IMG/VR virus record: IMGVR_UViG_3300020442_001799
Location: 1-25,592 of that record
Origin: a virus
Length of the DNA stretch: 25,592 nucleotides
Direction: 5' to 3' (one strand)
Both the position numbers and the translations under genes were made by a program. The notes beneath the pieces were generated by a model that saw nothing but the letters and a program-made list of their open reading frames with translations, made no database searches and was not told where the DNA came from. This document shows, in pieces, positions 1 through 25,592 of the stretch (the first letter of the stretch is position 1; each line of letters opens with the position of its first letter).

Positions 1-3000
1 TGGTCTTTGTGCGGTAGTACCTACTGGAGGAACCATCGCGCCAACACCCATCTTACCGCGAGTAACAAATCCCTTAACTGCGAATTCAGTTGGGCAAGCG
101 GTGTTGGAGTCGCCAGACATGAATTCATCAGAGGAGAATTCGTTAATTGCCTCACCGACCTGACCACCGATAGCACCCAGTCTCAATTCGGTCAAACCAG
201 ACAAGTTGAACGCGGAAGCATCCAATGTCGCACGACCTGTTAACTGGTCAACGGAGAAGAACTGACCAACTCTGAAGTTACCACCTTGGTCGGTAGATAC
301 GAAGAATACCTTACCTGGCCCGAATGTGTTGGTCTCATTACCCTGAATGATTTGAGTTTCGTCAACATCAGGATAGTTAGTTTCAGTCTTGTTACCAGTA
401 CCAACACTCAAGAAGTCGTGACCTGTCAGGCGGACCTGAGAGAATCTAGTTCTAACAGTGATGGTAGAACCTGCGCCCGTGATGTTACGGGTGTCAGGCG
501 TACCCTGACCCTTCTCTGGAGAGATTGTCAGAGTAGCACGGTTAAAGAATGTGTGTGCAAGTCCAACAGTGTCAGTGTAAGTTACCGCAGCCGAGACGTT
601 AGTAACTGTGTTAACAATGTAGAACAGGGAATCTCCACCGTAGGAAGTTGAGAATCCGATTGCGTCACCTACGAGAGGAACTTGATCGTATCCATCGATC
701 TCAAGGATTGTACCCTTCTGACCAGAGATGGAAGATGTTGCAGCAGCAACAGTGAATGAACCACCGTAAGATGCGCCTGAATCGAATTGATATGCGTATA
801 CAAGTTCACCATCAATGAATGGAGATGTACCGATTGCAACGTTACCGTTAGAAGGAGCTGCAGTCTGACCGTAGCCAGGATGATACTTGAAGTAGAACTT
901 ATCAGCAGACTTCTGGTCATTAACCAACCATGCCTGAGCACCTGAGGATTGACCAGTAAGTGTATTACCAACCGCGACAGTACCCGTAACAGTTGTTCCG
1001 AGAATAGTCATCAAGTCACCGAACAGTCTCGCTGATCTTGCAGTTTCTTCAGAGGAGAAACCAGAAGAGATAACACCGTAGTCACCGTAAGAGTTGTTAC
1101 CACCAACAGCACGAATTCTCGCACCACCACCAGAGTAGTAACCCCACTTAGCGTAGTAGGAGAAGCAGGAGACGATCTCAGCGATTGCACTCTTATCAAG
1201 GAGGAATCCAGCACCATCAGAGTTAACCTGCGTGAAGGCGTCGAAGACCATCGATTTTGCACCTTCGCTGTGGACACCACCGTCAATGAAGACTCCAACA
1301 CCACCACCACCGAAGCGGCCGAAGTCAGTTGCAGGATCAGAGAAGGTTGTACAGTCCTTAACGTAAGGAGACTTGTTGTTAATTGGGGAGTTGGGGTTCA
1401 GTGCGAAGAACACACCAGCTGCAGTTGTACCGATACCAGTTCTGAGGTTGGTATTGTCCATCTCCAGAGGAGCGTTAGGATCGTAATGGAAACCTTCCAT
1501 TCCCTTGAATGCCAGCGCCTGAATGGTAGTACCATCAGACAACTTGAACATTGTAGATCTGTTGTTTGGAGTGGTTCCATCATCAGAGAAACCAGAAGCA
1601 GGAAGAACCTGAGTACCTCTCAATGTATGTCCAACAATCGAAGTGAATGGAGGAACAATAATTGGAAGTTGCTCATAGAACTGAGACGCAGACAGTCTCA
1701 AGATAGCAGGAGTCAGGTCAGTTAACAGACCACCCTTGACATAGGTGTGATTAATTGTAGAAACACCAACGTTAACTCTGAAGGTATCAGAATCGGGAAC
1801 CTCAAGAACTTCGAAGTAGGACTTAGAAGCCTTATCAGGATAAACAGTAGTTGTAAGACCAACGAATGCAGTACCAGACTGGACGTAGAGGTAATCAGTT
1901 GCAGATTGACCAACGTTCAGGATGATAGAGTTAGCATCGGGGATACCTTGTACAGGGAACTGATACTGGCCAGGAGTATGGACAGATGGGAAGTTACCTG
2001 TGATAGTTGTATTACTGGATGCAACACCGATGTTAACAGTAATTGTTGTTGTCGAAGTTGCGGTAATAGGAATCGCAGTATCGTAATATGGGTCTGTAGA
2101 ACGAGGATAAGAGTGATCGGTAATATAACCGTCCATTGCACAACGGAAGATCAAGCTGTTATCAGCAAGTTTAATTGATGTTCCAGATGCAAGTTGGTGA
2201 GTACCGATGTCCATAACCAGTTCACCAGTAAGGTGATCATAGGTTGCAGCACCTACATCGTAAGTTACAAGTGGAGAAGTACCAACGTTTACAGTGAAAG
2301 TATTCTGAGTAATTGCAGTAACTGCCAGAGTTGAACCTCTTGCAGGGTCACTAGATCTTGGATATGTCTTGTTAGCCGAGTTACCATCCATGGCACAAGT
2401 AAATGTCATGGAGTCGTCATCAATGGTGAGTGTATCACCGATTGAAAGACCATGGTTACCAACGGTGAATACGATTTCACCAGAGTTCGCAGTATAAGAT
2501 GCGTTAGTTGGTGTTAACTCTGAACCATTGAGAGATCCACTAGTGATGTTGATTGCACCAGAGTTAGCAGCGATAAAGGTGTGAGCGTAGTTACCACCTG
2601 TCTTAACTGCACCAGATGTTGCAGACTGGAATGTGTGAGCAAATCTTGCGTCTCCAGTATATTGAACCTGAAGATTTCTGATTCTAACAGTAGCACCGAT
2701 TCCAATTTCAGGAGCAGCACCAAGTCCAATAGCAGTAATTGTTGCAAGACCAACAGTCTTGTTGTACTGCATACCCAGTACGCTAAAGACATTACCACCA
2801 GAGAGACATTCGAATTCAACACCCTCTAACTGAACGAACGTACCAGTGTTTTGCAGTCCATGACCAGGAGCTGTAATGGTTGCAACACCAGTTGCGGCAG
2901 TGTAGTTGAATCCTGTAATAGGTGTTTGAGGACGAGCAGCGGCACAAGCCTTCTTAATCGTCTTAAACGCCAAGTTAGGTGCAAGACCGTTGTTAAGGTC

Positions 3001-4035
3001 ATGTCCAGACTCAGAGTCAACATAGTAAACTCGGGTTTGAGCACCAACGATCTCGTATCCAGGCATTCCGTTGTCCTGAACAGCAAGAGCATATCCAGTA
3101 GAACCAATACCAATTCTGAAAGGACCAGAGTTATATGTAAGAATATCACCCTTACTTACCAGAACAGCAGAGCTGTCTCCAGCAGCAAGTGTTTCCCAAT
3201 AAGTACCGAGACCAGCGGTAGGAGTAACACCTTGGAAAGAGTTACCAACAGAGACATAAGAGTTGGAACCGTATCTTACGACATGGCCAGGATGGTATGC
3301 GAAAGATGTAGAGAAGTTACCAACGAAATTGAAACCTTTAACAAGAAGGTCCCAAACAGAGTTACCGATACCAACACCCTGCGTATTACCTGCAGAAAGT
3401 GGAGCGATGTTAGTAGTAATTCCTAATTTGTGGCGGAAAATGTCACCACCGTACTGTACAAGTTGTCCTCTGTAATAAGTTCCTGTTGCATAAGTGATAG
3501 CAGCACCTGCGATACCATCAGCAAGTACCTGCCATTTCTTACCAGAAACGTCAGTACCGATAGCGACGTTCTCTGGAGGAGAGAATCCTGCAAGAGAAGT
3601 AGTTAACGCAACATAGGATGAACCTTGATAGTTAACAACGTCACCTGATTGATACTCGTTATTAATGCTCCATTCGCCTTCGGCTTTGAAACCTGCAATA
3701 TATTCCGTGACTTTACTTAAGTCAATAAATGTTCCTACTGATTCGTGCGCCGTAGTAACTCTATACTGAACGTTGCCGAATTTAACGACATCATTAACTT
3801 TGTAGTAAACGCCAGCTGTCCAATCGCCTTTCGAGGAGATTCCTTCGATATGCACGTTCCACTTTGAGAGATCCGTAGCATAGAAGTCTGCGGTACTCGC
3901 TGTAGAAGTGTGGTTGGCGACAGCAACGTAAGAGTTACCACCAAACTTGATGAGGTCATCAATCAGGTAGGATTTGGATGGCTGCCATTCGCCAGTCCAG
4001 TTGAATTTTACTCTTCCAAGTCTAAACTCAGCCAT
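1..4035 (-). CDS. Beta-helix tail fibre/spike protein with five N-terminal sugar-binding-like modules (3' end beyond window)
   Basis: One frame stays open from ATG at 4035 to the left edge (1345 codons, no stop), so the C-terminus is missing. AGGAGAG lies at 4039-4045, close before the ATG. Residues about 11-267 hold five modules resembling chitin-binding (CBM5/12-type) domains, each with a pattern like W...Y..GD.V.Y.G..Y.A (e.g. SGDVVNYQGSSYVALTT). YYVDSESGHDLNNGLAP (about 337-353) followed by AFKTIKKAC is the usual opening of a pectate-lyase-like beta-helix, which resumes at about 786 with LPIIVPPFTSIVGHTLRGT and a Gly-rich stretch to about 980. Between them sits a block with two ~85-residue YPR repeats. 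Residues 1239-1345 (GPGKVFFVSTDQGGNF, LRLGAIGGQVGEAINEFSSD) look like a conserved cyanophage C-terminal domain. The likely role is an adhesin touching host surface sugar. Beta-helix fold and virion location are inferred from motifs. Confidence 0.88.
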   Translation of the reverse strand, partial: MAEFRLGRVKFNWTGEWQPSKSYLIDDLIKFGGNSYVAVANHTSTASTADFYATDLSKWNVHIEGISSKGDWTAGVYYKVNDVVKFGNVQYRVTTAHESVGTFIDLSKVTEYIAGFKAEGEWSINNEYQSGDVVNYQGSSYVALTTSLAGFSPPENVAIGTDVSGKKWQVLADGIAGAAITYATGTYYRGQLVQYGGDIFRHKLGITTNIAPLSAGNTQGVGIGNSVWDLLVKGFNFVGNFSTSFAYHPGHVVRYGSNSYVSVGNSFQGVTPTAGLGTYWETLAAGDSSAVLVSKGDILTYNSGPFRIGIGSTGYALAVQDNGMPGYEIVGAQTRVYYVDSESGHDLNNGLAPNLAFKTIKKACAAARPQTPITGFNYTAATGVATITAPGHGLQNTGTFVQLEGVEFECLSGGNVFSVLGMQYNKTVGLATITAIGLGAAPEIGIGATVRIRNLQVQYTGDARFAHTFQSATSGAVKTGGNYAHTFIAANSGAINITSGSLNGSELTPTNASYTANSGEIVFTVGNHGLSIGDTLTIDDDSMTFTCAMDGNSANKTYPRSSDPARGSTLAVTAITQNTFTVNVGTSPLVTYDVGAATYDHLTGELVMDIGTHQLASGTSIKLADNSLIFRCAMDGYITDHSYPRSTDPYYDTAIPITATSTTTITVNIGVASSNTTITGNFPSVHTPGQYQFPVQGIPDANSIILNVGQSATDYLYVQSGTAFVGLTTTVYPDKASKSYFEVLEVPDSDTFRVNVGVSTINHTYVKGGLLTDLTPAILRLSASQFYEQLPIIVPPFTSIVGHTLRGTQVLPASGFSDDGTTPNNRSTMFKLSDGTTIQALAFKGMEGFHYDPNAPLEMDNTNLRTGIGTTAAGVFFALNPNSPINNKSPYVKDCTTFSDPATDFGRFGGGGVGVFIDGGVHSEGAKSMVFDAFTQVNSDGAGFLLDKSAIAEIVSCFSYYAKWGYYSGGGARIRAVGGNNSYGDYGVISSGFSSEETARSARLFGDLMTILGTTVTGTVAVGNTLTGQSSGAQAWLVNDQKSADKFYFKYHPGYGQTAAPSNGNVAIGTSPFIDGELVYAYQFDSGASYGGSFTVAAATSSISGQKGTILEIDGYDQVPLVGDAIGFSTSYGGDSLFYIVNTVTNVSAAVTYTDTVGLAHTFFNRATLTISPEKGQGTPDTRNITGAGSTITVRTRFSQVRLTGHDFLSVGTGNKTETNYPDVDETQIIQGNETNTFGPGKVFFVSTDQGGNFRVGQFFSVDQLTGRATLDASAFNLSGLTELRLGAIGGQVGEAINEFSSDEFMSGDSNTACPTEFAVKGFVTRGKMGVGAMVPPVGTTAQRP
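2010..2520 (-). repeat. Two YPR repeat units (~85 residues each) inside the beta-helix protein
   Basis: The cores are TCAMDGNSANKTYPRSSDPA (cysteine codon near 2397) and FRCAMDGYITDHSYPRSTDP (cysteine codon near 2142). The two cysteines are 85 residues apart, the same period as the array at the right end of the window. Each unit also carries a leading G.GH(G/Q)L-type turn and a trailing T.NVG-type strand. Boundaries are approximate. Confidence 0.75.
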
Positions 4036-4460: not shown

Positions 4461-4919
4461 TTAACTTCCTCTATTGTTGAAGATTTTCCAAAGTGATCCA
4501 GTCCAGATCAAACTTACCGATGCACCAGAAACATCCAAAATCAATGGAGATGTTTCTCTCACTAGATGACCATTCTCAAATTCGTGAATCGAGGTCAACG
4601 AAACTGGATTAATACTCCAAAAGTTAGTGAAATCTTCTACCCATACCCAGTCACCAACCGCACGAGGGGTTGGCATCGCCAAAGAATATCCACCAGGAGC
4701 ATTTTTTGAATCAACCGTATACTTTTGGTTAGTCGTCATAGAATAAGGACCATCGACGAACGTCCATCTGGACTTCGCCAATTCAAAACCACCTGGAGTT
4801 ACACCGTCGTGAACAACAGCAACGTTTTTGTCTGTGTCAACAGTTACTTCTGCAAGGGCACCAGTGAAGTTAAAGTGTTCAGCTGTTGTGCCTTTTCTTA
4901 GTTGTACCTGTTTTGTCAT
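4461..4919 (-). CDS. Tail protein with Mtd-type (major tropism determinant) N-terminal domain (152 aa)
   Basis: Residues 1-47 (VQLRKGTTAEHFNFTGALAE, then VTVDTDKNVAVVHDGVTPGG) match the pattern of the Mtd N-terminal domain, found at the start of many phage fibre and receptor-binding proteins, where it helps trimerisation or attachment. The remainder resembles a short beta-rich tail domain in which YTVDSKN..GGYSLAMPTPRAVGD is followed by ILDVSGASVSLIWTGSLWKI. There is no C-type lectin domain, so it is not a full Mtd. A late promoter box at 4956-4963 sits about 37 bases upstream, so this gene probably starts the last transcription unit with the 134-residue gene and the beta-helix fibre. The Shine-Dalgarno sequence is weak (GAG in GAGATTTGAATC before the ATG). 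A small fibre or fibre-tip subunit is likely. Confidence 0.87.
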   Translation of the reverse strand: MTKQVQLRKGTTAEHFNFTGALAEVTVDTDKNVAVVHDGVTPGGFELAKSRWTFVDGPYSMTTNQKYTVDSKNAPGGYSLAMPTPRAVGDWVWVEDFTNFWSINPVSLTSIHEFENGHLVRETSPLILDVSGASVSLIWTGSLWKIFNNRGS

Positions 4920-4981: not shown

Positions 4982-7900
4982 TTAAATGATGACAACGAAT
5001 GTACGACCTTCCTCGAATTGAACACGTTCGATGATTGTTGGTGTGATCGATTTGATCGTGATATTTCCGATTCCAACATAAGTCGATCTTGCATATGCCT
5101 CGTCGAGAGATCCAATGCCGAACAGGGATCCTGTCGCGTTGAATGGTGGGAATACGCGGCGGAACCCAGTACCACCTCCAATTTTGAAGAGTCCAGAACC
5201 ATCTGGAGATGGAGTGTAATCGACAAATGGATGTACGAGAGGAGTATTGGAGAATGTAAATCCACCAGATGTGCCAGGATCTTTGTCGTCTCCATAGTAT
5301 CCAAAGACTTGGATTGGTTTTGTAATACCAACACCAGAGATTGTGGTGATACCAGATGTGCCTGGATCTTTGTCGTCTCCGTAGTATCCAAATACTTGAA
5401 TTGGTTTTTCTTCCGCATCTCCAAGAATCTTGAAGAGCATTGTTTCTTCGCCAGCACCCGAAGTAAACGATACGTCTGCGGAACCAGAAATCGTTGCAGT
5501 ACCACCAATAATGATTGCGGTGATTCTGTAAACTGTTGTGGATTCTCCAGTAAATTCGAACAGACCAGAACCGTCTGGAGCTGGAGTGTAATCGATCTGT
5601 GGATGTGTAAGTTCTCCAACAATCGAAATTGTTCCTGAAGTGCCTGGATCTCTGTCGTCTCCATAGTATCCAAATACTTGAATCTGTCTGTTTTCGGATT
5701 CTCCTCCAACGTTGACAAGAACTGCGAACGTGGAAATAACAGGTGTGATAGATTCCGCACCACTGGCGAAGGCGAAGAGAGAACCACCACCAACTTCGGA
5801 GAATGTATTTCTTTCTTCCGCAATACCAGAAACATGAAGTGTTCCAGATGCAACGTATTTACGTTGACGGAATGCGTCTGCGTCTCCAGATACTGTAAGT
5901 GTCGCTGTATTTTCTGGAGTTTGTGCGGAGTATGCCTCTGCAGCACCGTATGGACCAGATATGAATAATGTACCTGCTCCAATTGGACGAACCAGAGTGC
6001 TTTCTGCAGCTCCACCGATTGTGTAGAGAGAACCAGAACCATCGAATGCATTGGTTTTTCTGAAGTCCAGAGATCCAGAGAATGTTCCAATGCCAACTCC
6101 GACTGGAGCCTGAGTAATTTCGCGATAAAGAGTTTTGTCTTTCTCTGTAGAGATCGTAATCGAACCAGATGTGCCTGGATCTCTGTCGTCTCCATAGTAT
6201 CCAAAGACACTGATTGGTCTGTTTGGTGCAGAACCAACGAAGTTGAAGAGAACAGGACCTGCAATAATTGGAGCAGGAATGAAACGTTCCTTCGCACCAA
6301 ATTCAACACCATTAAGATCACCAATTCCAGTGTCATCATCAATAACACCGTTGCCTTCAGTACCAATACCAAGAATGTAGATAGTACCATCGGTAAGAAT
6401 TGGTGCGTTAGTACGACCGATTGCCTTACCATCGATGAAGATAGTACCAGATGCAGGATACCTAGGAATAAATCTGGAGGTAACAATGCCTGGACCTGTT
6501 CCGTCTTCGTTGAGTCCACCACCATTGGATAATGTAACTCCAGTCTCGATACCGATATTTCTGTCGATACCGTAATGTGGAGTGTAATCGATATCTGGGT
6601 GAACCAGTTCTCCAGACAATCTGAGAGTTGCTTTGTCTGCAACCTCGGCGAATGTTGCACTGAATGGATCGACACTTCCGTATGGAGTGAAGAGAGAAGT
6701 TCCTTCTGGAGGATTCGAGATAAGCTTCTCGGAACCAATACCAACCAGACTGATAGTACCAGATCCAACTTCTTCGAATCTGACTCTTTCGACCATCTCT
6801 CCAGAGAAGGATGCCGTACCAATACCGACATCGACCTTGGTGAGATTCTCTGTTCCAAAGCCACTTGTAAGAATTGTAACAGTTCTTTCTGGAGACTGCC
6901 AGACAACTGCTTCGTCGCCCGATCCAGAAAGTGGCAGAAGAGGAACATCTGCACGTTCGAATATGGTAATCGACTCTTGAGCGCTGGAAATATCGAAGAG
7001 AACTGAACCTTCTCCATCGTAAGATGGAATCCACTGAGTCTTCGCACGAGGAACTGCGTCGATAACACCAACCGCAGTACCAGAAGTAAGTGGGAATATT
7101 GGGGCTCTTTCGGAATCTTCGTTGAGCCAACCATAATCAAAGTAACCTCTGTCAATATTATCCTGATGGACAAATCCAGTATTAGATGGCCATTCATATT
7201 GGTCATATGGAGGTCCACCAACAACAGAAGATCCAAGTTCACCCCAATCTTCACTGACAACGTTGTAACTGAAGTTACCAACTTCATTAGTATTATCGAA
7301 CGATGGAAGTGATGTACTTCCAACACTGACATCGAATCCACGACTGACGTTGAGGTTGCTGATTTCTCCCCAAGTCTCGTTGCCCTGACCATAAAGAATA
7401 GAAGATTCGTTGTAAGAATCTGTCTGTCTTTCATCACTAGAACCAGTAATTCCGAAGAGACCAACAGTATCACCGACATCAATAATTCTAAGATAAGTCT
7501 GACCTTCTTCTCTACCCTGTCTAAGAGTAATGAGACCACTACCTCTGAAGTGTGGAACGTACCTAGAGACAGAAGAACCAGTGATGAACTTGACAGCGGC
7601 AGTGTCAGATGTCTTAGTGACAGATTCACTAAGACCACCGATTGTGAAGAGACTACCAGAACCAATCTCGGTTGCAGGAGTAATAGACTCATTACCACTA
7701 CCACTAATGGTAATTTCACCCTCAAGACCGAATACTGTATGTTGTGGTGCCTGACTGAACCAGTTGTAACCAAAGATATTGATTCCAGCCTTGTAGGTGG
7801 CAATACCAGTAATACCAGAAGATTCGTAATCGTATGCTCTTGGAGCATCTGCAAAGTCGGATAGGAAGAATGTTCCGATACCGTTGTAAGAAGTTCTGGC

Positions 7901-9463
7901 GAATGCTTGGTCGCCTTCTCCAACAATAGTAACCGCCCTGAAGCCAGGAATAATGTACTTGTAATCTTCTGCTCTGAAAGCAACTAGACGTACAAATCCA
8001 TAATCTGCATCGTCTTGAGTTGGAGTTTGACTGATTGAACCATAATCAATAGGTTCAACAAATCCATCTCTTTCAAGAGGCGATCTCCAATGAGGAGTGA
8101 AGTCCTCGATGATCGTACCACTGATAGCAAAGAGATTTGTATTCTCGTAGTCTTTGACAATTGCAACGTCTGTTGCAGCACCTGTGAGGGTATGTCTTGC
8201 AGTTGTTGATGGTGGGAAGTGTGTAAGTTTGAGTCCTTCTGCAAATCCTGTAAAGAATAGTTCTGCACGACTGATTCTTTGACGAACAACTGCTTCTGCA
8301 GCAGCACTTCCCTTGACAATGAGACCTGTGCCTTCGATACCCTTCGGTGTGAAGGATTCGTTTGCGGATCCATTGAAGGTAAATTGACCTTCTTCTCCAA
8401 ATACTGTGTGTTGTGGTGCCTGACCAAGACCAAGTTGACCTTGTGCAGTGATCGTACCAGATCCTTCCCATGCAAAGGTGTTTCTCTCGGAGAGTCCCGA
8501 CTGTTTGACCAGTTGAGCAGTTTCTCCAACATATTTTCTGATAAATCTGTCGTATGCCTTGTTCTGTGCATTAACAGAAGTTGCCTTGGTGGATAACTTA
8601 CCGTAACGAACATCAGCAACGATCTGACCCCAATCTTCATAAGATGCTGGAGTCTGAGAAATCTCACCAAATGCTTCTGCTGTTACCTGATCGGAATCAG
8701 CGAACGAATTGGTATTATTTTGTGTAGAGTCAAAGGTGACATCATCACTAGAGAATGCTGCACCTTGTCTAACAGCAACCGTGCCGAAGTCGAGTTCTTC
8801 GAAACCGCCAGTGTAGAAGGAGTAGTCATACGTTCTACTCTCTTCAAGTGTACCGTTAAGGGTTTCCTCATTAGGACGAACTTCAATAAATTCGTCTGGA
8901 TATGTCTGTGAGGTTCCACCAGAAACGGTGAGTGTAATTCTTGATTCGAACGGATATATGTTGAATTCCGCCGTTGCAGCCTCTTCAGAGACAGTAAGCG
9001 TTCCAGATCCGATTTCGACAAACGTATTGCTTGTATGGGCCTCGCCGAGGAGGGTAGGAAATGGTCCTGCGGCTCCAAAGTCGGGAATAACCAGTCTTTC
9101 CAGACCGCCACCAATCTCGAATAGGGTGCCAGATCCTTGCCAAGGCGCCTGAGAACGAGATACCTTACCAAGTCCTTGAATAAGGACTGCATCCAATGGA
9201 AGAGAAGGCACGAAGGTTGCAGACTCTTCTAAGCCGTTTGTAATAGTTGCGATTTCTCCGAATGGATATACATCGCCTGTAAAATTAATAATACCGTAAT
9301 TGTTAGGGTTAAAACCTAGTGCGTCTTCTTCAATTACGGGTGCATCTGAAATATTTCCAAAATCCTCTGTCGTCCCCGCCGTGGTCGTAAGTTGACCATA
9401 GGTTTCGGAGACAAAATAGTTTATTCTTGCCGAGTCGTAGGTAAAAACCTTTGGGGCAGACAT
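4982..9463 (-). CDS. Very large Gly/Ser-rich, repeat-containing virion (fibre-like) protein (1493 aa)
   Basis: ATG at 9463 follows GAAGG (9470-9474) at a six-base spacing. I do not recognise a named domain over most of the protein. It is built of short beta-type units with recurring signatures: GSGTLF.I.G...ES (many copies), F(G/D)..SQTP, APQHTVFG.EG (two copies), L.HP..DYTP (three copies) and VFGYYGDDRDPGTSG or its K variant (four copies, near residues 1088, 1266, 1360 and 1388). Such composition fits a long extended fibre or an outer virion adhesin and is familiar from T4-like cyanophage structural proteins. A hairpin with a U-tract sits just upstream of its start and a late promoter just downstream, so its expression may be set apart from both neighbours. 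Sampled G+C is high (47-52% at 7501-7560 and 9001-9060). Virion location is inferred from content and neighbours. Confidence 0.87.
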   Translation of the reverse strand: MSAPKVFTYDSARINYFVSETYGQLTTTAGTTEDFGNISDAPVIEEDALGFNPNNYGIINFTGDVYPFGEIATITNGLEESATFVPSLPLDAVLIQGLGKVSRSQAPWQGSGTLFEIGGGLERLVIPDFGAAGPFPTLLGEAHTSNTFVEIGSGTLTVSEEAATAEFNIYPFESRITLTVSGGTSQTYPDEFIEVRPNEETLNGTLEESRTYDYSFYTGGFEELDFGTVAVRQGAAFSSDDVTFDSTQNNTNSFADSDQVTAEAFGEISQTPASYEDWGQIVADVRYGKLSTKATSVNAQNKAYDRFIRKYVGETAQLVKQSGLSERNTFAWEGSGTITAQGQLGLGQAPQHTVFGEEGQFTFNGSANESFTPKGIEGTGLIVKGSAAAEAVVRQRISRAELFFTGFAEGLKLTHFPPSTTARHTLTGAATDVAIVKDYENTNLFAISGTIIEDFTPHWRSPLERDGFVEPIDYGSISQTPTQDDADYGFVRLVAFRAEDYKYIIPGFRAVTIVGEGDQAFARTSYNGIGTFFLSDFADAPRAYDYESSGITGIATYKAGINIFGYNWFSQAPQHTVFGLEGEITISGSGNESITPATEIGSGSLFTIGGLSESVTKTSDTAAVKFITGSSVSRYVPHFRGSGLITLRQGREEGQTYLRIIDVGDTVGLFGITGSSDERQTDSYNESSILYGQGNETWGEISNLNVSRGFDVSVGSTSLPSFDNTNEVGNFSYNVVSEDWGELGSSVVGGPPYDQYEWPSNTGFVHQDNIDRGYFDYGWLNEDSERAPIFPLTSGTAVGVIDAVPRAKTQWIPSYDGEGSVLFDISSAQESITIFERADVPLLPLSGSGDEAVVWQSPERTVTILTSGFGTENLTKVDVGIGTASFSGEMVERVRFEEVGSGTISLVGIGSEKLISNPPEGTSLFTPYGSVDPFSATFAEVADKATLRLSGELVHPDIDYTPHYGIDRNIGIETGVTLSNGGGLNEDGTGPGIVTSRFIPRYPASGTIFIDGKAIGRTNAPILTDGTIYILGIGTEGNGVIDDDTGIGDLNGVEFGAKERFIPAPIIAGPVLFNFVGSAPNRPISVFGYYGDDRDPGTSGSITISTEKDKTLYREITQAPVGVGIGTFSGSLDFRKTNAFDGSGSLYTIGGAAESTLVRPIGAGTLFISGPYGAAEAYSAQTPENTATLTVSGDADAFRQRKYVASGTLHVSGIAEERNTFSEVGGGSLFAFASGAESITPVISTFAVLVNVGGESENRQIQVFGYYGDDRDPGTSGTISIVGELTHPQIDYTPAPDGSGLFEFTGESTTVYRITAIIIGGTATISGSADVSFTSGAGEETMLFKILGDAEEKPIQVFGYYGDDKDPGTSGITTISGVGITKPIQVFGYYGDDKDPGTSGGFTFSNTPLVHPFVDYTPSPDGSGLFKIGGGTGFRRVFPPFNATGSLFGIGSLDEAYARSTYVGIGNITIKSITPTIIERVQFEEGRTFVVII
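5264..6222 (-). repeat. Four dispersed direct repeats encoding FGYYGDD(R/K)DPGTSG
   Basis: Near-identical 50-59 base copies occur at about 5264-5322, 5351-5409, 5641-5690 and 6164-6222. They share the plus-strand core CCTGGATCT.TGTCGTCTCC with few substitutions. All are in frame within the 1493-residue gene. The two leftmost copies are only about 87 bases apart. Confidence 0.85.
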
Positions 9464-19361: not shown

Positions 19362-20957
19362 TTAGAACTCCAGTACGATTTTAATGTCTTCCTTCTGACT
19401 AGATGATCGGGGAATCGCAGTCCTGTTATCAATATAGATTAATTCACCAGACTTCTTATTATATTCTGCAGAAGCAATACCAGCGACAAAGTTAATGCCT
19501 AACTGGTATGTCGTATTATTTATTGACGTAGTAATACCGTTGAAATCGGTATTCAATTCCAAGACAGGTCCAGAAACAGAACTGCCGTTAATAGTAACAC
19601 CATATCCTGCATCAGGTGTTGCAGTAAATGGAATAATTTTAAATCCTGCATCACTGTTAGCAAGACCAACTGGTTGATAGTATTTAAGAACTGCGGTAAC
19701 AGGATCCCATGCTGCAACCATACCAATTGCGGTAGAACCAACACCAACGGTCTGAGTAATCTCAGAGTCAACTGCATACTTTGTTTCAGTCGTAACACCA
19801 GATAACTTTAATGCTTGTAATCCACTAACAACTGATGTATCTAGAAGTTCTTTATCACTTCCAAAAACTGTTGGATTCTTTAAAACTCCAATTCTAGCAA
19901 AATCATTTCCTTCAATAACGTCAGGATTTGTTTCTTGAGTTTCAAATCTAGAGTACATAAGAACTCTATAAGCACCCAATTCCCTGTAAACATCATAACC
20001 ATGACCACCCTTGGGAGGAATAATAACGTCGAATTGAGCTCTAGCAGTAGTACCAATACCAGTATTAGTCAAGTTCTCAATAGCACCTCCAGACTCACTG
20101 CCAGGGGCGCCAGGGAAGAACTGGATGTTGCCATGGGTATATCCTTGGCCACCATCAGTAACAAAGACCTCAGATACCTTACCGAAAGAGTCAATAGTGA
20201 TAGTTGCCTTACCACCAGTACCATCACCAAGAATAGGAACATTAGCAAAAGAAGTGGAAATTGGTTGATAACTTGTTCCCCTATCACCAATAACTACAAT
20301 TTCAATCTTTCCATCAATAGCATTATTTTTGGTAGCAACAGTTTCACCTTGAATACCCCAGTCTTCTGGAACTGGAATATATTCAATTGAATCAAATTTT
20401 ACAATTTCTGACGGTTTAATAGTGTATAAGTATTTCCAAATATAACCATCACCAGAAGTACCCGCTGCTCTTGGTTCTAAGTCAATGAATTGTGGTTGAT
20501 CATAAGATGGACGACCCTTGGGGTTTTCTGGGTCAGATCCATTCTGCAAACAAACATAAACCCTAAGGTCTTCATTAATTACATAATAATTTGCTTCATA
20601 TAAGTTTGCTTGGGAAGTTGTAGGAGTAAGATTGTAGATATTATAGTCATGTCTATACATTTCATAGGTTGCACCAGCAACCCAATTAACTTTCCTAACA
20701 AGTCTACGAACATCTCTATCCGTGACTTTTTTCAATGCAATAATAGACTCCTTTACTTCATTTTCTTCTCTAAAGCCATCTAGAGGAGCAGGAGTATTGG
20801 TATTCCAGTCATTAGTACCGCCACCATCTGGATTAGTGGAGTTCGGCAATCCAATAAAAGAATAATACTTGTTTACTGTAGAGCCAACGCCAACAAAACT
20901 TTTCACAAAAGTCTCTGCGTTGAGAATTCTAAATTGATCTGAAATGATGGCAGGCAT
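19362..20957 (-). CDS. 8: Baseplate wedge subunit, T4 gp8 homologue (531 aa)
   Basis: The N-terminus (MPAIISDQFRILNAETFVKS, then YYSFIGLPN) and WVAGATYEMYRHDY (about 92-105) fit cyanophage gp8. Residues about 170-200, with DGYIWKYLYTI followed by EYIPVPEDWG, align with T4 gp8's DGYVWEYLFEI and its EYIVVP sequence. gp8 is a dimeric wedge protein that binds gp7 and gp10 in the T4 baseplate. At 531 residues it is longer than T4 gp8 (334); the extra length is mainly C-terminal, with GDGTGGKATITIDSFGKVSE and GGQGYTHGN glycine-rich segments. It follows the gp7-position gene and has an exact late promoter box 26 bases upstream. No good Shine-Dalgarno is visible (AAGAAAAAAATACC before the ATG region). 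Confidence 0.9.
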   Translation of the reverse strand: MPAIISDQFRILNAETFVKSFVGVGSTVNKYYSFIGLPNSTNPDGGGTNDWNTNTPAPLDGFREENEVKESIIALKKVTDRDVRRLVRKVNWVAGATYEMYRHDYNIYNLTPTTSQANLYEANYYVINEDLRVYVCLQNGSDPENPKGRPSYDQPQFIDLEPRAAGTSGDGYIWKYLYTIKPSEIVKFDSIEYIPVPEDWGIQGETVATKNNAIDGKIEIVVIGDRGTSYQPISTSFANVPILGDGTGGKATITIDSFGKVSEVFVTDGGQGYTHGNIQFFPGAPGSESGGAIENLTNTGIGTTARAQFDVIIPPKGGHGYDVYRELGAYRVLMYSRFETQETNPDVIEGNDFARIGVLKNPTVFGSDKELLDTSVVSGLQALKLSGVTTETKYAVDSEITQTVGVGSTAIGMVAAWDPVTAVLKYYQPVGLANSDAGFKIIPFTATPDAGYGVTINGSSVSGPVLELNTDFNGITTSINNTTYQLGINFVAGIASAEYNKKSGELIYIDNRTAIPRSSSQKEDIKIVLEF

Positions 20958-20993: not shown

Positions 20994-23900
20994 TTAAGTC
21001 AGAGGTCTTGTTCTGAAGATCTGGGCTGCAGTAGAAAGACCGACTAATCCAGCATCAGGATTGACGATGAAATTCTCAGGTTGTCCAGAAATTCTATTCT
21101 GGAAGTCATAAATTCTACCCCATGAGTATTTACCATAATAATCACTAATAGCAGTAGTTCCAACTCCAACTTGAATCTGACTATTACTATTTGGACCAGG
21201 CTGGAATGAACATGTAACTGTTACAATTCCACTCACAGTATCTGGTACTGAAACTTTATCTACTTGGAAAAGTCCATTAAGTTTTTCACCAGCAGAAATA
21301 ATTCCAACCTTATTTGTAGGATAGTTATTATATCCACCGACATGGGTACTAATTCCAGTTAAGGCATGTCCTACGGTTACTGGACTATCGTAGATAATAA
21401 AGTAATCACCAATTTGTAATTGAGTATTATTAATTCCAAATGTGTTTAGAGATGAGAAACCATAACCAAGGTTAGTGTTGTCATTGAACTCAGACTTGAG
21501 ATAGAACTCAAGTTTTGGAGGAACACTAAATCCAATACCAGTAACGAAGGTACTCATACCAACAATTCTACCGAAATCACCTTCTGCTTTGAATGAGTAT
21601 ACAGTTTCCTTCTTGGGAACATCACTTCCAACAACTACAGGGGGATTAGAACCTAAATCATAACCAAATCCACCATTAGTAATAATGGCAGTAGAAACAC
21701 CACCATTAGTTACTGCACATGTTGCTGTTGCTCTATTGAGGATTGGTTCTGCATAGTAGGCAGTTCCTGAACCACCAACAACAAGTAATCTACCGTCCAA
21801 TCCAAAATTAGAGAACACTAAGTCACCAACTGGTTGACTTTGACCATTATCTCTGTAATTCCAATTTGCAAGATCTAAAGAATAATAAAGTTCACCTACA
21901 GTGGTAATACCAACATAGAGTCCATCATCATATCTAATTTTTTCAAAGTCAAATGTTGCAGCTGCAGTTGTTCCTGCAGGAAGATTATCACTGAATGGGA
22001 ACCAGAAGTTTTTATCTGTAGATGTGACAATAGTACCATTATCACCAACTGCGATAAATCTACTACCATCGTACATAATATCTCTAAGATTCTTATTGGT
22101 GTTACTTGTCTTTAAATTCCAAATTTTACCAACATTAGATGAGATAATAGCACCACCATTACCAACTGCCACATATTCATCCTGAGCATAAACAATTCCA
22201 TGAAGTGTCTCTAAAGTTCCAGAGAATTGACTGTAAAGAGTGGTAGTTCCAATACCAACACCAGTAAATACAGATCCACCAAATCCAATAGCAATCCAAG
22301 ATCCTGCAGTATTATCCCAGATAACATCATTAAATTCTCTAGAGAATGTAGTTGGATAATCCACACTAACACCAATAGAAGGTATCTGTCTCTGTTCAAT
22401 AAGTTGCAGTTCTTCAAATTGTCCAATTGTATCACCATAAGAAACTGCTCTGGCTGCTGATGCATATTCACCAACAATCATTACTTGATGATTTGGACTA
22501 TAAGTTTTATCTTTTGCAGTAGCTACAGCATTTAATGTAGTTGTTCCACCGAAACCAACAACACCTCTCTCCCAGAAGAATCCACTGAGAGTATTGATAT
22601 ACCTACTACTAGTTCCAACTGCAATAATTGGTTCACTCTGCGTAATTTCTCTAAGATCTGCAGAAGCAATATCACCAGTGATAACATCAAACTTCCAATC
22701 CTTCATTGGATCTTTCTTAGTAATCTTAGAAGAAGATATAAGAATATCTGGATTGGTAACATTTAAGTAACCAGCACCAGAAGATGCAATACTTAAGGCA
22801 GAAATACTAGAAGAGGTAGATACCGTAGCAGTAATAATTGCAGGATCAATTTCTCTTTCTTCGAAAATTTGAATATGTCGATCTTGTTCTGTAAGAAGAT
22901 CAACCTCAGAGAATACAGGGAAAGCATTCTTAACATATATCGAATCGTCTGTTGCTCCTACGTTTTTAATGATTTGAGTAACAGGAGTAACCTTACCTTT
23001 ATAATTTAACCTATCCTTGGAATAATAAACACCAGAAATAATTTTATCAGACTTCTGTTTAACCCAAGAAAGAGGTCTTTCTGCATTCTGATCAGTTGAG
23101 ATTCCAAGACTATCGTAAGTAAAGGTCTCAAGCATATCAGAAGCAACAATTCTCTTAGTTGTTCTTGGGAATTGATCCCTATCAAGAACATCTAATTTAT
23201 TTTCTTTAATCTGAATTTCATCGCCTGGTTGAACTGTAGGAATTGGTTCAATTTCTTCAACATCAATAGAAGAACCTCTATAGTAGAAAACAGAACACTT
23301 AGATCCAGGCTTAGGTGCTTCAGTGAATATAACTCTACTACCTTTCCAAGTATAGGCCTCACCTGGAGTTTGAAGGATATCATTAATGTAGATAAAGATG
23401 TTATTGGTAACATCCATATCACTGCCTTCAATGGTTTTAAGACTGAGAATCTCAGTTACTCCAGCAGTTGTTACGGAAAGAGTAAACTTAGTTCTACTTC
23501 CATTAAAGAATGGTGCAATATCATCAAACAAGACGAACTGGCCAGGATAGAATCCAAAGAACTTATCATTACCAATCTCAATTACTTCTAGTTGGAAATC
23601 AGTATGAACACCTACTCTTGCGTCAGTAACAATACCAGCAACAGTAAGTCCATCTTCAACTTTATACCCTACACCTTCTTCAGTAATATCAAACTCACCA
23701 ATATTTCCATCAACGTTAATTCTAACGTCTACAATAGCACTTTGACCAATTCCAGTTGTTGTAAGACCAGTAGCATCTGGATTGTAAACCAATGGAAGAG
23801 CAAAGTAGCCAGGTGGTTCATGAACATTCAATCTAATAGGTCTTTCTACAGTTCCCCCTCTACTAAAATACCAAGGAGAAGTTAAAATACCAGATTGTAC

Positions 23901-25592
23901 TCTGAAGTTTGCATTATCAATTTTTTCAAGTACATGTTGACCATCACCAAATTGTTCAGACTCCATTCCTGCAGCTTGAACATAAGGAATAGGATACCTA
24001 AATGCACGTTGTACTGTACCACCTCTATTGTAATTGTGAGGTACTGTAGATGGTCCAACTTGGACTGTAAATGTAATTCCACTACCAACTTTCTTAACAA
24101 ATGCTCCGTGTGCAGCAACATCACGTCCACTAGTAGAATTATTCTGTTCTCTTGGTGCTAAAATAGAACCTTGAATAGTTCCACCACCAATGTAATTTGA
24201 AGGTGTGGTAGAAGGACCGACATTAATCTCAACTACAGTATTACTAGTTACTTTGGAAATTTGAGCAGAATTGAAATATGGATCTCCACCTTGAGGATAT
24301 CTATGTTCTGTAGCGTTTCCATCCTTTGTACAGGTGAATACAAGAGACTCTGGTAAAATCCTTACTGGATTTTCTACAAGTAATCCATGACCCGATCCAA
24401 GAGTCAGATCCATTAAACCTGTTGTTGGAGAGTATGTTGCTCCAGTAACATTATGAGAAACTGATGTAGTTGGTCCAACACTAACTGTAAAAGTATTTGT
24501 AGTTGTAGCAGCAATTGATACACGACCTGCAACTGTAGCTGGATCTGTTTGTCTGGGATAAGTATGTTCTGTTTGATGATCGTCCATACCACAGGTAAAG
24601 ACAAATCCATCAACAGCAAGTCTAATTGATGTGCCAGTTCTCAATCCATGAGGTTTATCAGTAGTGACTGTCATAATTCCAGTCGCTGCATTATAATCAG
24701 CACCAATTGCTTGTGAGAACGTGTGAGTAGAAACTCCAACGTTTACAATAAATTCATTTTCACTGGTTGCTGCAATACCGATACGGGTATTGGAAATAGG
24801 ATCTGTTGATCTAGGATAAGTGTGATTAGATCCATGATTATCCATATCACAAGTGAATGTGAAGGAGTTATCGGTGAACCTAACAGATCTAGTAGTATCT
24901 AAACCATGACCAGCAGCAATAACTGTCAACTGACCTGTTACTGGGTTATAAACTGCATTTGTTGGTTGGATGTATGTTGTTGTAGTAACACCAACTTCAA
25001 TTTCAAAAGTATCTAATGTTGTAGCTCCAATAGAAACACCTACACCAGAAATAGGATCTGTTGATCTTGGATATGTGTGTTCTGTTGCATTATCATCTTG
25101 AGAACATGTGAATACAAAAGAGTTATCCGTAATTCTGATATGTGATCCCGTGAATAGTCCATGTCCTGGCGAGGTAATCGTCATGATACCTGCAACAGGA
25201 TTGTAAACTGCATTAGTTGCTGTCTTATAGACTAATGGAGAAGCACCTACATTAATCTCAAATGCATTCTGACTTGTACCAGCAATCGCAACATTAGTAC
25301 CATCAATAGGATCACCTGCTCTAGGATAAGAGTGAGTGCTATTATGATCATCAAGTTCACAAGTAAATACTAATGAATCTCTAGTAACCTTAATGTGTTG
25401 ACCTTCTTCCAATCCATGATTGGGGAAAGTGATATTTACAATACCAGTCTTACCATCATAAGTTGCATTTGTTGGTTGTAAATAAACAATCGTGGAGATA
25501 CCAACTTGAACTTCAATCTGAGTTGTAGAAGGAACACCAACTACAGGAACATCAAGTTGTCCCTGGCCGATTGGGTCAGTTGATCTTGGATA
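20994..25592 (-). CDS. Very large baseplate/tail structural protein in the gp7 position (5' end beyond window)
   Basis: The frame is open from the right edge to TAA at 20994-20996, giving 1532 visible residues. A TTG at 25412 could be read as a start, but the coding pattern continues unchanged upstream to YPRSTDPIGQG at the edge, so the true start lies outside. The visible order is: tandem ~85-residue YPR repeats (24330-25592); three Y..GGT(I/V) turns; a fibre-like segment (NIFIYINDILQTPGEAYTW); a gp7-like block (DRDQFPRTTKRIVASDMLET, then RPLSWVKQKSD); a propeller-like region at 21735-22360; and the C-terminus with YYGKYSWGRIYDF. Placement directly before gp8 matches T4 gp7, the largest wedge protein, but sequence identity to T4 gp7 is not evident. 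It probably acts as a wedge or peripheral baseplate protein; this is mainly inference from order and domain style. Confidence 0.87.
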   Translation of the reverse strand, partial: YPRSTDPIGQGQLDVPVVGVPSTTQIEVQVGISTIVYLQPTNATYDGKTGIVNITFPNHGLEEGQHIKVTRDSLVFTCELDDHNSTHSYPRAGDPIDGTNVAIAGTSQNAFEINVGASPLVYKTATNAVYNPVAGIMTITSPGHGLFTGSHIRITDNSFVFTCSQDDNATEHTYPRSTDPISGVGVSIGATTLDTFEIEVGVTTTTYIQPTNAVYNPVTGQLTVIAAGHGLDTTRSVRFTDNSFTFTCDMDNHGSNHTYPRSTDPISNTRIGIAATSENEFIVNVGVSTHTFSQAIGADYNAATGIMTVTTDKPHGLRTGTSIRLAVDGFVFTCGMDDHQTEHTYPRQTDPATVAGRVSIAATTTNTFTVSVGPTTSVSHNVTGATYSPTTGLMDLTLGSGHGLLVENPVRILPESLVFTCTKDGNATEHRYPQGGDPYFNSAQISKVTSNTVVEINVGPSTTPSNYIGGGTIQGSILAPREQNNSTSGRDVAAHGAFVKKVGSGITFTVQVGPSTVPHNYNRGGTVQRAFRYPIPYVQAAGMESEQFGDGQHVLEKIDNANFRVQSGILTSPWYFSRGGTVERPIRLNVHEPPGYFALPLVYNPDATGLTTTGIGQSAIVDVRINVDGNIGEFDITEEGVGYKVEDGLTVAGIVTDARVGVHTDFQLEVIEIGNDKFFGFYPGQFVLFDDIAPFFNGSRTKFTLSVTTAGVTEILSLKTIEGSDMDVTNNIFIYINDILQTPGEAYTWKGSRVIFTEAPKPGSKCSVFYYRGSSIDVEEIEPIPTVQPGDEIQIKENKLDVLDRDQFPRTTKRIVASDMLETFTYDSLGISTDQNAERPLSWVKQKSDKIISGVYYSKDRLNYKGKVTPVTQIIKNVGATDDSIYVKNAFPVFSEVDLLTEQDRHIQIFEEREIDPAIITATVSTSSSISALSIASSGAGYLNVTNPDILISSSKITKKDPMKDWKFDVITGDIASADLREITQSEPIIAVGTSSRYINTLSGFFWERGVVGFGGTTTLNAVATAKDKTYSPNHQVMIVGEYASAARAVSYGDTIGQFEELQLIEQRQIPSIGVSVDYPTTFSREFNDVIWDNTAGSWIAIGFGGSVFTGVGIGTTTLYSQFSGTLETLHGIVYAQDEYVAVGNGGAIISSNVGKIWNLKTSNTNKNLRDIMYDGSRFIAVGDNGTIVTSTDKNFWFPFSDNLPAGTTAAATFDFEKIRYDDGLYVGITTVGELYYSLDLANWNYRDNGQSQPVGDLVFSNFGLDGRLLVVGGSGTAYYAEPILNRATATCAVTNGGVSTAIITNGGFGYDLGSNPPVVVGSDVPKKETVYSFKAEGDFGRIVGMSTFVTGIGFSVPPKLEFYLKSEFNDNTNLGYGFSSLNTFGINNTQLQIGDYFIIYDSPVTVGHALTGISTHVGGYNNYPTNKVGIISAGEKLNGLFQVDKVSVPDTVSGIVTVTCSFQPGPNSNSQIQVGVGTTAISDYYGKYSWGRIYDFQNRISGQPENFIVNPDAGLVGLSTAAQIFRTRPLT
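21735..22360 (-). other. Beta-propeller-like (BNR/Ycf48-style) region inside the gp7-position protein
   Basis: The segment shows repeated blade-like units: FNDVIWDNTAGSWIAIGFGG, LHGIVYAQDEYVAVGNGGAI, LRDIMYDGSRFIAVGDNGTI, and IRYDDGLYVGITTVGELYYS. Each combines a strand, an aromatic or acidic turn, VAVG.(G/N)G, then ISS or TS followed by a Trp-containing (W) strand. This pattern is typical of sialidase/BNR and Ycf48-type propellers. Four to five blades are visible. No catalytic role is claimed. Confidence 0.65.
24330..25592 (-). repeat. Tandem ~255-bp repeats encoding ~85-residue YPR units
   Basis: Five full cores are visible: FTCELDDHNSTHSYPRAGDP, FTCSQDDNATEHTYPRSTDP, FTCDMDNHGSNHTYPRSTDP, FTCGMDDHQTEHTYPRQTDP and FTCTKDGNATEHRYPQGGDP. 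A sixth begins at the right edge (YPRSTDPI). The cysteine codons start at about 25361, 25106, 24851, 24593 and 24332, spacings of 85, 85, 86 and 87 residues. The DNA is also similar, for example plus-strand ATAGGATCTGTTGATCT at 24796 and again at 25051. Confidence 0.9.

Follow-up and report, generated by a model that had tools for sequence, protein, structure and literature searches.

A re-used insertion site in the beta-helix of a cyanomyovirus tail fibre, occupied in one clade by a putative concentric nest of YPR units

Our results indicate that the tail fibre encoded at one end of a 25,592-base IMG/VR virus fragment (the window, meaning the whole stretch of DNA that was analysed) has, judging from its sequence, a pectinesterase/pectate-lyase-like right-handed beta-helix whose N-cap helix is separated from the first coil by 407 residues. 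We consider it likely, although by no means assured, that these residues reflect domain insertion at a re-used site (S1) followed by concentric growth, and that they form a surface-contact turret whose units are exchanged with a pool in gp7-type proteins. S1 is the first loop of this helix and joins its N-cap helix to the coil that follows; in the model that we propose, a small beta-barrel unit (A) would have been inserted there first, and further units would then have been placed inside A, in the loop just before its YPR/FPD hairpin. The insert would enter and leave at neighbouring points of the helix, so that the helix would fold as it does in insert-free relatives. The block would stand off the side of the helix near its N-terminal end, as a swappable turret of small barrels contacting a host-surface glycan or the envelope, and its units would be exchanged by recombination with the many units of identical type that gp7-type virion proteins contain. 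The features of the window are as follows (residue numbers are those of the fibre).

1..4035, minus strand: tail-fibre ORF, residues 1-1345 visible, C-terminus past the window end (phrog_9851 match)
3574..3675, minus strand: best-scoring CBM_5_12-like repeat, residues 121-154 (PF02839)
2932..3030, minus strand: beta-helix N-cap, residues 336-368, comprising a strand (YYVDSESG) and a helix (AFKTIKKAC) (anchor A HMM, 60.6 bits)
1711..2931, minus strand: insert at site S1, residues 369-775, 407 aa (gap between anchors A and B)
2794..2919, minus strand: putative first half (A1) of the outer split unit A, residues 373-414 (unit HMM 1-45, 21 bits)
2662..2781, minus strand: putative first half (B1) of the inner split unit B, residues 419-458 (joined B halves, 23.5 bits)
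2275..2508, minus strand: complete YPR unit C, residues 510-587 (104 bits, E 1.8e-33, computed in a small search set)
2020..2250, minus strand: complete YPR unit D, residues 596-672 (109 bits, E 5e-35, likewise computed in a small search set)
1867..2004, minus strand: putative second half (B2) of unit B, residues 678-723 (HMM, joined halves)
1711..1860, minus strand: putative second half (A2) of unit A, residues 726-775 (outer-unit HMM 40-93, 43.4 bits)
1600..1710, minus strand: beta-helix first coil, residues 776-812, PAILRLSASQFYEQLPIIVPPFTSIVGHTLRGTQVLP (anchor B HMM, 70.2 bits)
1573..1599, minus strand: second insertion site S2, residues 813-821, 9 aa, almost empty (anchor gap)
1045..1572, minus strand: remaining beta-helix in the analysis, residues 822-997 (anchors C and D; Foldseek)
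24210..25592, minus strand: C-terminal part of a gp7-like baseplate protein, with five YPR units in full and the end of one more (80-99 bits)

The profile phrog_9851 ("tail fiber protein") matches the ORF at 1032 bits, which identifies it as the tail fibre of a cyanomyovirus. Fibre residues 1-1149 pair with only profile columns 1-763, leaving approximately 386 residues that are extra to the family profile. The closest named relatives are a protein of Synechococcus phage Sf-FS3 (70.9% identity) and the tail fiber of S-SSM7 (68.6%). Since the closest full-length homologues have approximately 1475 aa and 1345 residues are visible here, the C-terminus lies beyond the window. In the N-terminal region (residues 1 to about 300), three stretches match PF02839 (CBM_5_12; E 1.5e-16). 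Members of phrog_9851, such as those of S-SSM7 (YP_004324166), P-SSM2 (YP_214532), and S-CAM1 (YP_007673142), share with the window the gene, the beta-helix, and the gene order small Mtd_N tail protein, small protein, fibre. Most of them, unlike the window fibre, lack the S1 block, and P-SSM2-like members have their YPR units, one or two in number, at S2. Two observations concern the remainder of the fibre and its neighbours. In one full-length fibre (L023), the last ~90 residues (1383-1473) match positions 64-151, the C-terminal part, of phrog_9648, the family to which the neighbouring small Mtd_N tail protein (window 4461-4919, minus strand) belongs; a tip domain is common to the two adjacent genes. 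The ORF at 4982-9463 (minus strand) encodes a 1493-aa protein without a Pfam match, in which a 91-base repeat, present in three copies at window 5265-5724, encodes QVFGYYGDDxDPGTSG-type motifs.

A preliminary description of the window had noted two beta-helix motifs held apart by a long block, and both are located where it placed them: YYVDS begins at residue 337, AFKTIKKAC lies within the anchor at residues 336-368, and LPIIVPPFTSIVGHTLRGT falls inside the first-coil anchor at residues 776-812. The block, estimated there at about 420 residues, is present with an exact size of 407 (residues 369-775). The YPR repeats attributed to it are found as two complete units (residues 510-587 and 596-672), but the block is not a simple YPR run; its remainder is largely made up of another two related units, both of them divided into halves. 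To survey the site, anchor HMMs were built for the N-cap, the first coil, and the next conserved stretch and were searched in all fetched ORFs. Among 191 homologous ORFs, retrieved by searches seeded with particular homologues and giving counts that are not population frequencies, the two motifs are separated by 1-14 residues in 79 (typically by 1 in insert-free fibres), which agrees with the earlier expectation that they normally lie close together. The gap is 84-93 residues in 85 ORFs of the Pelagibacter-phage type, where it is filled by an unrelated module rich in ITNGGSG motifs, and 93-107 residues in 11 ORFs, which contain one YPR-type unit. It reaches 407-414 residues in 15 ORFs including the window and 298 in one (L022), that is, 298-414 residues in 16 ORFs in total. 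S1 is evidently a re-used insertion hot spot, with different viruses loading different domains. The next loop, S2, which follows "...RTSTVKP", has 9 residues in the window and 4-6 in the shortest homologues; in P-SSM2-like fibres it has 180-299 aa with 1-2 YPR units, and by the same comparisons it is a second hot spot, one coil after S1. In Pelagibacter-phage fibres (L009, L129-L207), S1 and S2 each hold an ITNGGSG.AAGDTVTF module, and in a few homologues YPR units are found at further positions of the fibre.

For the C-D pair (175 residues), an alignment of 55 unit pairs gave a predicted structure of two small beta-barrels with a pLDDT of 90.4. The invariant or nearly invariant features of the unit are Y, G, H (in HGL), FTC, D, YPR, DP, and G. 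When the C-D model was compared by Foldseek, it matched the phi92 endosialidase (probability 0.98-0.99, rmsd 2.7-3.1 over 80-86 residues, E 0.15-0.22, the lowest of which, 0.15, exceeds any normal threshold) and chains of the E1 enzyme UBA6 (probability 0.66-0.80, E 0.6-1). In Pfam, weak matches to End_beta_barrel (PF12195) were obtained for 10 of the 55 unit members (best E 0.0073, with a score below the curated cut-off), the window unit itself being unmatched by this family, and weak matches to E1_FCCH (PF16190) for 4 of the 55 (best E 0.00099). An hhalign comparison of the unit with the K1F barrel aligned only the HGL-GD stretch (24 columns), and the unit was identified neither by an NCBIfam search nor by a direct search of PDB sequences. 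A weak kinship of fold with the endosialidase beta-barrel and E1 FCCH is only a lead, because the structure and Pfam lines agree, yet neither is significant alone. The endosialidase barrel (PF12195; K1F, phi92) resembles the unit in being a small beta-barrel set into a different domain, there that of a phage receptor-binding enzyme, in the HGL-GD motif present in both, and, weakly, in its predicted fold. It differs in that its host domain is a beta-propeller, within which the K1F barrel sits inserted, in that it occurs in one copy only, and in that the sequence similarity covers ~24 columns with no YPR hairpin motif aligned. The K1F barrel, itself an inserted domain, bears a polysialic-acid site (PMC12632334), which makes the lead a suggestive one.

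The unit is present in 329 phage records, all of them from cyanophages or marine viruses. None was found in plasmids, and the search of bacterial genomes gave only 14 loci, almost all on marine MAG contigs, which we read as phage contigs and not host genes. A bacterial genome assembly, that of Nonlabens xiamenensis, includes a 188,235-base contig (L287; NZ_RMVE01000006.1) with cyanophage-type YPR units; its size fits a whole cyanomyovirus, and the contig may have entered the assembly as contaminating phage DNA. Within the window, YPR units are also found in the gp7-like ORF at 20994-25592 (minus strand; phrog_2885, baseplate wedge subunit), which is open at the window end and after which comes gp8 (19362-20957). 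The unit family of the window is also found in giant virion proteins of cyanophages (phrog_701, phrog_3442, and phrog_2885) (31-109 bits, up to 24 units per fragment), mostly in head-to-tail tandem, unlike the nested block of the fibre. The gp7 gene of P-SSM4 (L302; record 57144-79082) has 21,939 bases, encodes about 7,300 aa, and is rich in YPR units; giant genes of this kind occur in other cyanophages too. In a virion protein of ACG-2014f (L304), a tandem array is formed by an A-type (FPDGT...STIxHTYxSGG) sub-family of the unit, scoring up to 66 bits, with stray second halves.

As to the role of the S1 block, a surface-binding turret is our best guess, one that we favour by a little, because the number and kind of units vary at one loop in otherwise conserved fibres and because the cyanophage fibre gene cluster is known as a host-recognition region (PMC7029224). 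The main rival, since the baseplate gp7 uses the YPR unit too, is that the insert acts as a structural spacer, or offers other virion parts (e.g., gp7) a surface for docking, and makes no host contact. The five complete units in the gp7-type baseplate protein of the window, the abundance of units in P-SSM4 gp7 and similar giant gp7 proteins, and an insertion point at the N-terminal end of the helix, probably the one nearer to the virion, would all suit such a role. However, the insert is absent, or swapped for unrelated modules, while the fibre is kept, which fits a variable contact surface better, and the nearest fold match, a weak one, binds polysaccharide; a spacer or docking role is therefore possible but rather unlikely. 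A broader proposal, that marine T4-like phages keep S1 and S2, in the opening coils of the fibre helix, as dedicated docking loops into which barrels of a genome-wide pool in giant gp7-type proteins are recombined, the barrels in turn taking up more units at one fixed loop and the host-contact turret growing by concentric nesting, is put forward as doubtful.

The comparisons show unit A split around the rest of the block and support a concentric order, A1-B1-(C-D)-B2-A2, in which A is split by B and B in turn by C and D. Outside C and D, the YPR-unit HMM aligns its positions 1-45 with residues 374-417 and, weakly when taken alone (3.9 bits), its positions 48-78 with residues 731-759. An outer-unit HMM trained solely on inserts from single-unit fibres in other phages detects A2 at residues 723-776 (43.4 bits) and A1 at residues 373-413 (positions 4-43, 20.5 bits); when the two halves of the window are joined, they score 77.7 bits as one domain, and the joined halves score 72-79 bits in every nested member. 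In the alignment, unit A is unbroken in four homologues (L026, L032, L102, and L106) and split by about 310 residues in the window clade. The joined B halves of the window score 23.5 bits as one domain with an HMM built only from other phages, and those of all eight nested members tested score 22-31 bits, versus a best score of 10.3 in 2000 shuffles. From sequence comparison, we regard the nesting of layer A as well established and the case for layer B, which rests on joined weak halves, as good. One alternative is that A1, B1, B2, and A2 are degenerate leftover repeats and not folded split domains, so that the nest would be an accident of repeat decay. Layer B is indeed weak, its halves alone being near noise (2.7 and 7.4 bits), and stray half units also occur in the unit families of giant virion proteins. 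Against this stand the intact A at S1 in single-unit homologues (45 bits in L102), the scores of joined A and of joined B, the latter above anything in the shuffles, and the retention of the A and B halves across the nested clade at 65-93% identity, and we consider leftover repeats improbable. In another virion protein (L043), one complete unit is nested inside a split one; this host protein, unlike that of the window, is no beta-helix fibre as far as examined.

The history of the nest was read from a fibre tree built from the flanks only, without either insert, and unrooted. In this tree the nested clade (support 100/100) is sister to the single-unit clade (98/96), the insert-free L111-L113 come next (99/95), and the state of S1 requires three changes, the least possible. 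The flank tree, together with the empty state in distant branches, supports well a gain of one unit followed by growth inside unit A, rather than loss, although the direction is one that we infer, the tree being unrooted. L022, which lies inside the nested clade with one inner unit fewer, is most simply explained by loss; when its single unit was tested as a C/D recombinant, this was only weakly hinted at. A tree of the units, whose 78 columns resolve little, scatters the S1-inner units among those of other virion proteins (4 changes) and does not support C and D as sister copies that arose by local duplication. At the same low resolution, S1 and S2 units do not form separate single clades and are mixed with units of other virion proteins. 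It might be argued that the insert is the ancestral state and that the short homologues have lost it, given that change counts on an unrooted tree cannot by themselves separate gain from loss. However, the empty state is found in all major branches, including the closest neighbours of the window clade (L111-L113) and the most distant fibres (L119-L121), S1 holds unrelated N-type modules in another clade, no such insert occurs in pectinesterase folds from outside phages, and exact excision down to 1 residue would have been needed many times, all of which makes an ancestral insert very improbable.

Both ways in which the preliminary description could have failed were examined, and neither refuted it. 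The block is not carried by all homologues: its place is taken by 1 residue in S-CAM1, S-CAM3, and numerous relatives from metagenomes, and single-unit intermediates exist. Where the insert is missing, the first coil lies right beside the N-cap helix, as S-CAM1 illustrates (AFASLSHAVSLVTGPATIYVKAGIYNETLPIIVPENVSIIGDNMRTSTVKP), and the window first coil PAILRLSASQFYEQLPIIVPPFTSIVGHTLRGTQVLP corresponds to PATIYVKAGTYNETLPIIVPENVSIIGDNMRTSTVKP in insert-free homologues. In one of them (L120, residues 41-101), Pfam Pectinesterase aligns across both motifs, as do PDB pectinesterase sequences, although the Pectinesterase and Pect-lyase scores of L120 fall below the Pfam cut-offs. Across the insert-free homologues, the best E values were 3.1e-6 for Pectinesterase and 4.5e-7 for Pect-lyase_RHGA_epim (matched in 11 of 21 members), DUF1565 was matched at 5.6e-5, above its cut-off, and PDB pectinesterases at 2.7e-4. 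Since the motifs are adjacent in insert-free homologues and pectinesterase profiles run through both, the one-helix premise holds. The window protein itself has no direct Pfam pectinesterase/pectate-lyase-like match, because the block splits the motif; by Foldseek, its helix region matches pectin methylesterase, PL6 lyase, and phage tail fibre/lyase folds. The predicted model places the N-cap strand at residues 335-339 and the helix at residues 360-367. For residues 318-1022 as a whole, the model has a pLDDT of 77 and a pTM of 0.52, so that the placement of the block relative to the helix is uncertain; the top Foldseek match of the whole model, 1ohf, was discarded as meaningless (TM 0.06). That the block separates two unrelated domains, a view to which only the moderate pTM lends any room, is scarcely credible in the face of 79 ORFs with adjacent motifs and of profiles that span both.

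Domains that protrude from a parallel beta-helix are known from the P22 tailspike (dorsal fin) and K1 lyase (rider) (PMC8822698). Like the S1 block, they are inserted domains on a phage receptor-binding beta-helix, and the helix of the fibre is continuous without the S1 block. They are single inserts located elsewhere on the helix; in contrast, the S1 block is nested, lies at the junction of N-cap and first coil, and is made of a unit common to other virion proteins, and its site, unlike theirs, is re-used by unrelated modules. In the literature searched (open-licence papers only), we found no earlier description of domain insertion in cyanophage fibres or of FCCH domains in phage tails. Going by that literature, two elements are new: a site that is used repeatedly and may be empty or filled by one unit, by a nest, or by an unrelated module, and the arrangement of units of a single family in concentric layers.

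Cyanophage fibre genes vary strongly, and the roles of their individual parts are mostly unclear. The states of S1 (empty, one-unit, nested, and unrelated module) provide ready natural variants for testing the role of the insert in host contact. Concentric nesting by one unit family would be an uncommon route of protein growth, and its intermediates are still visible here.
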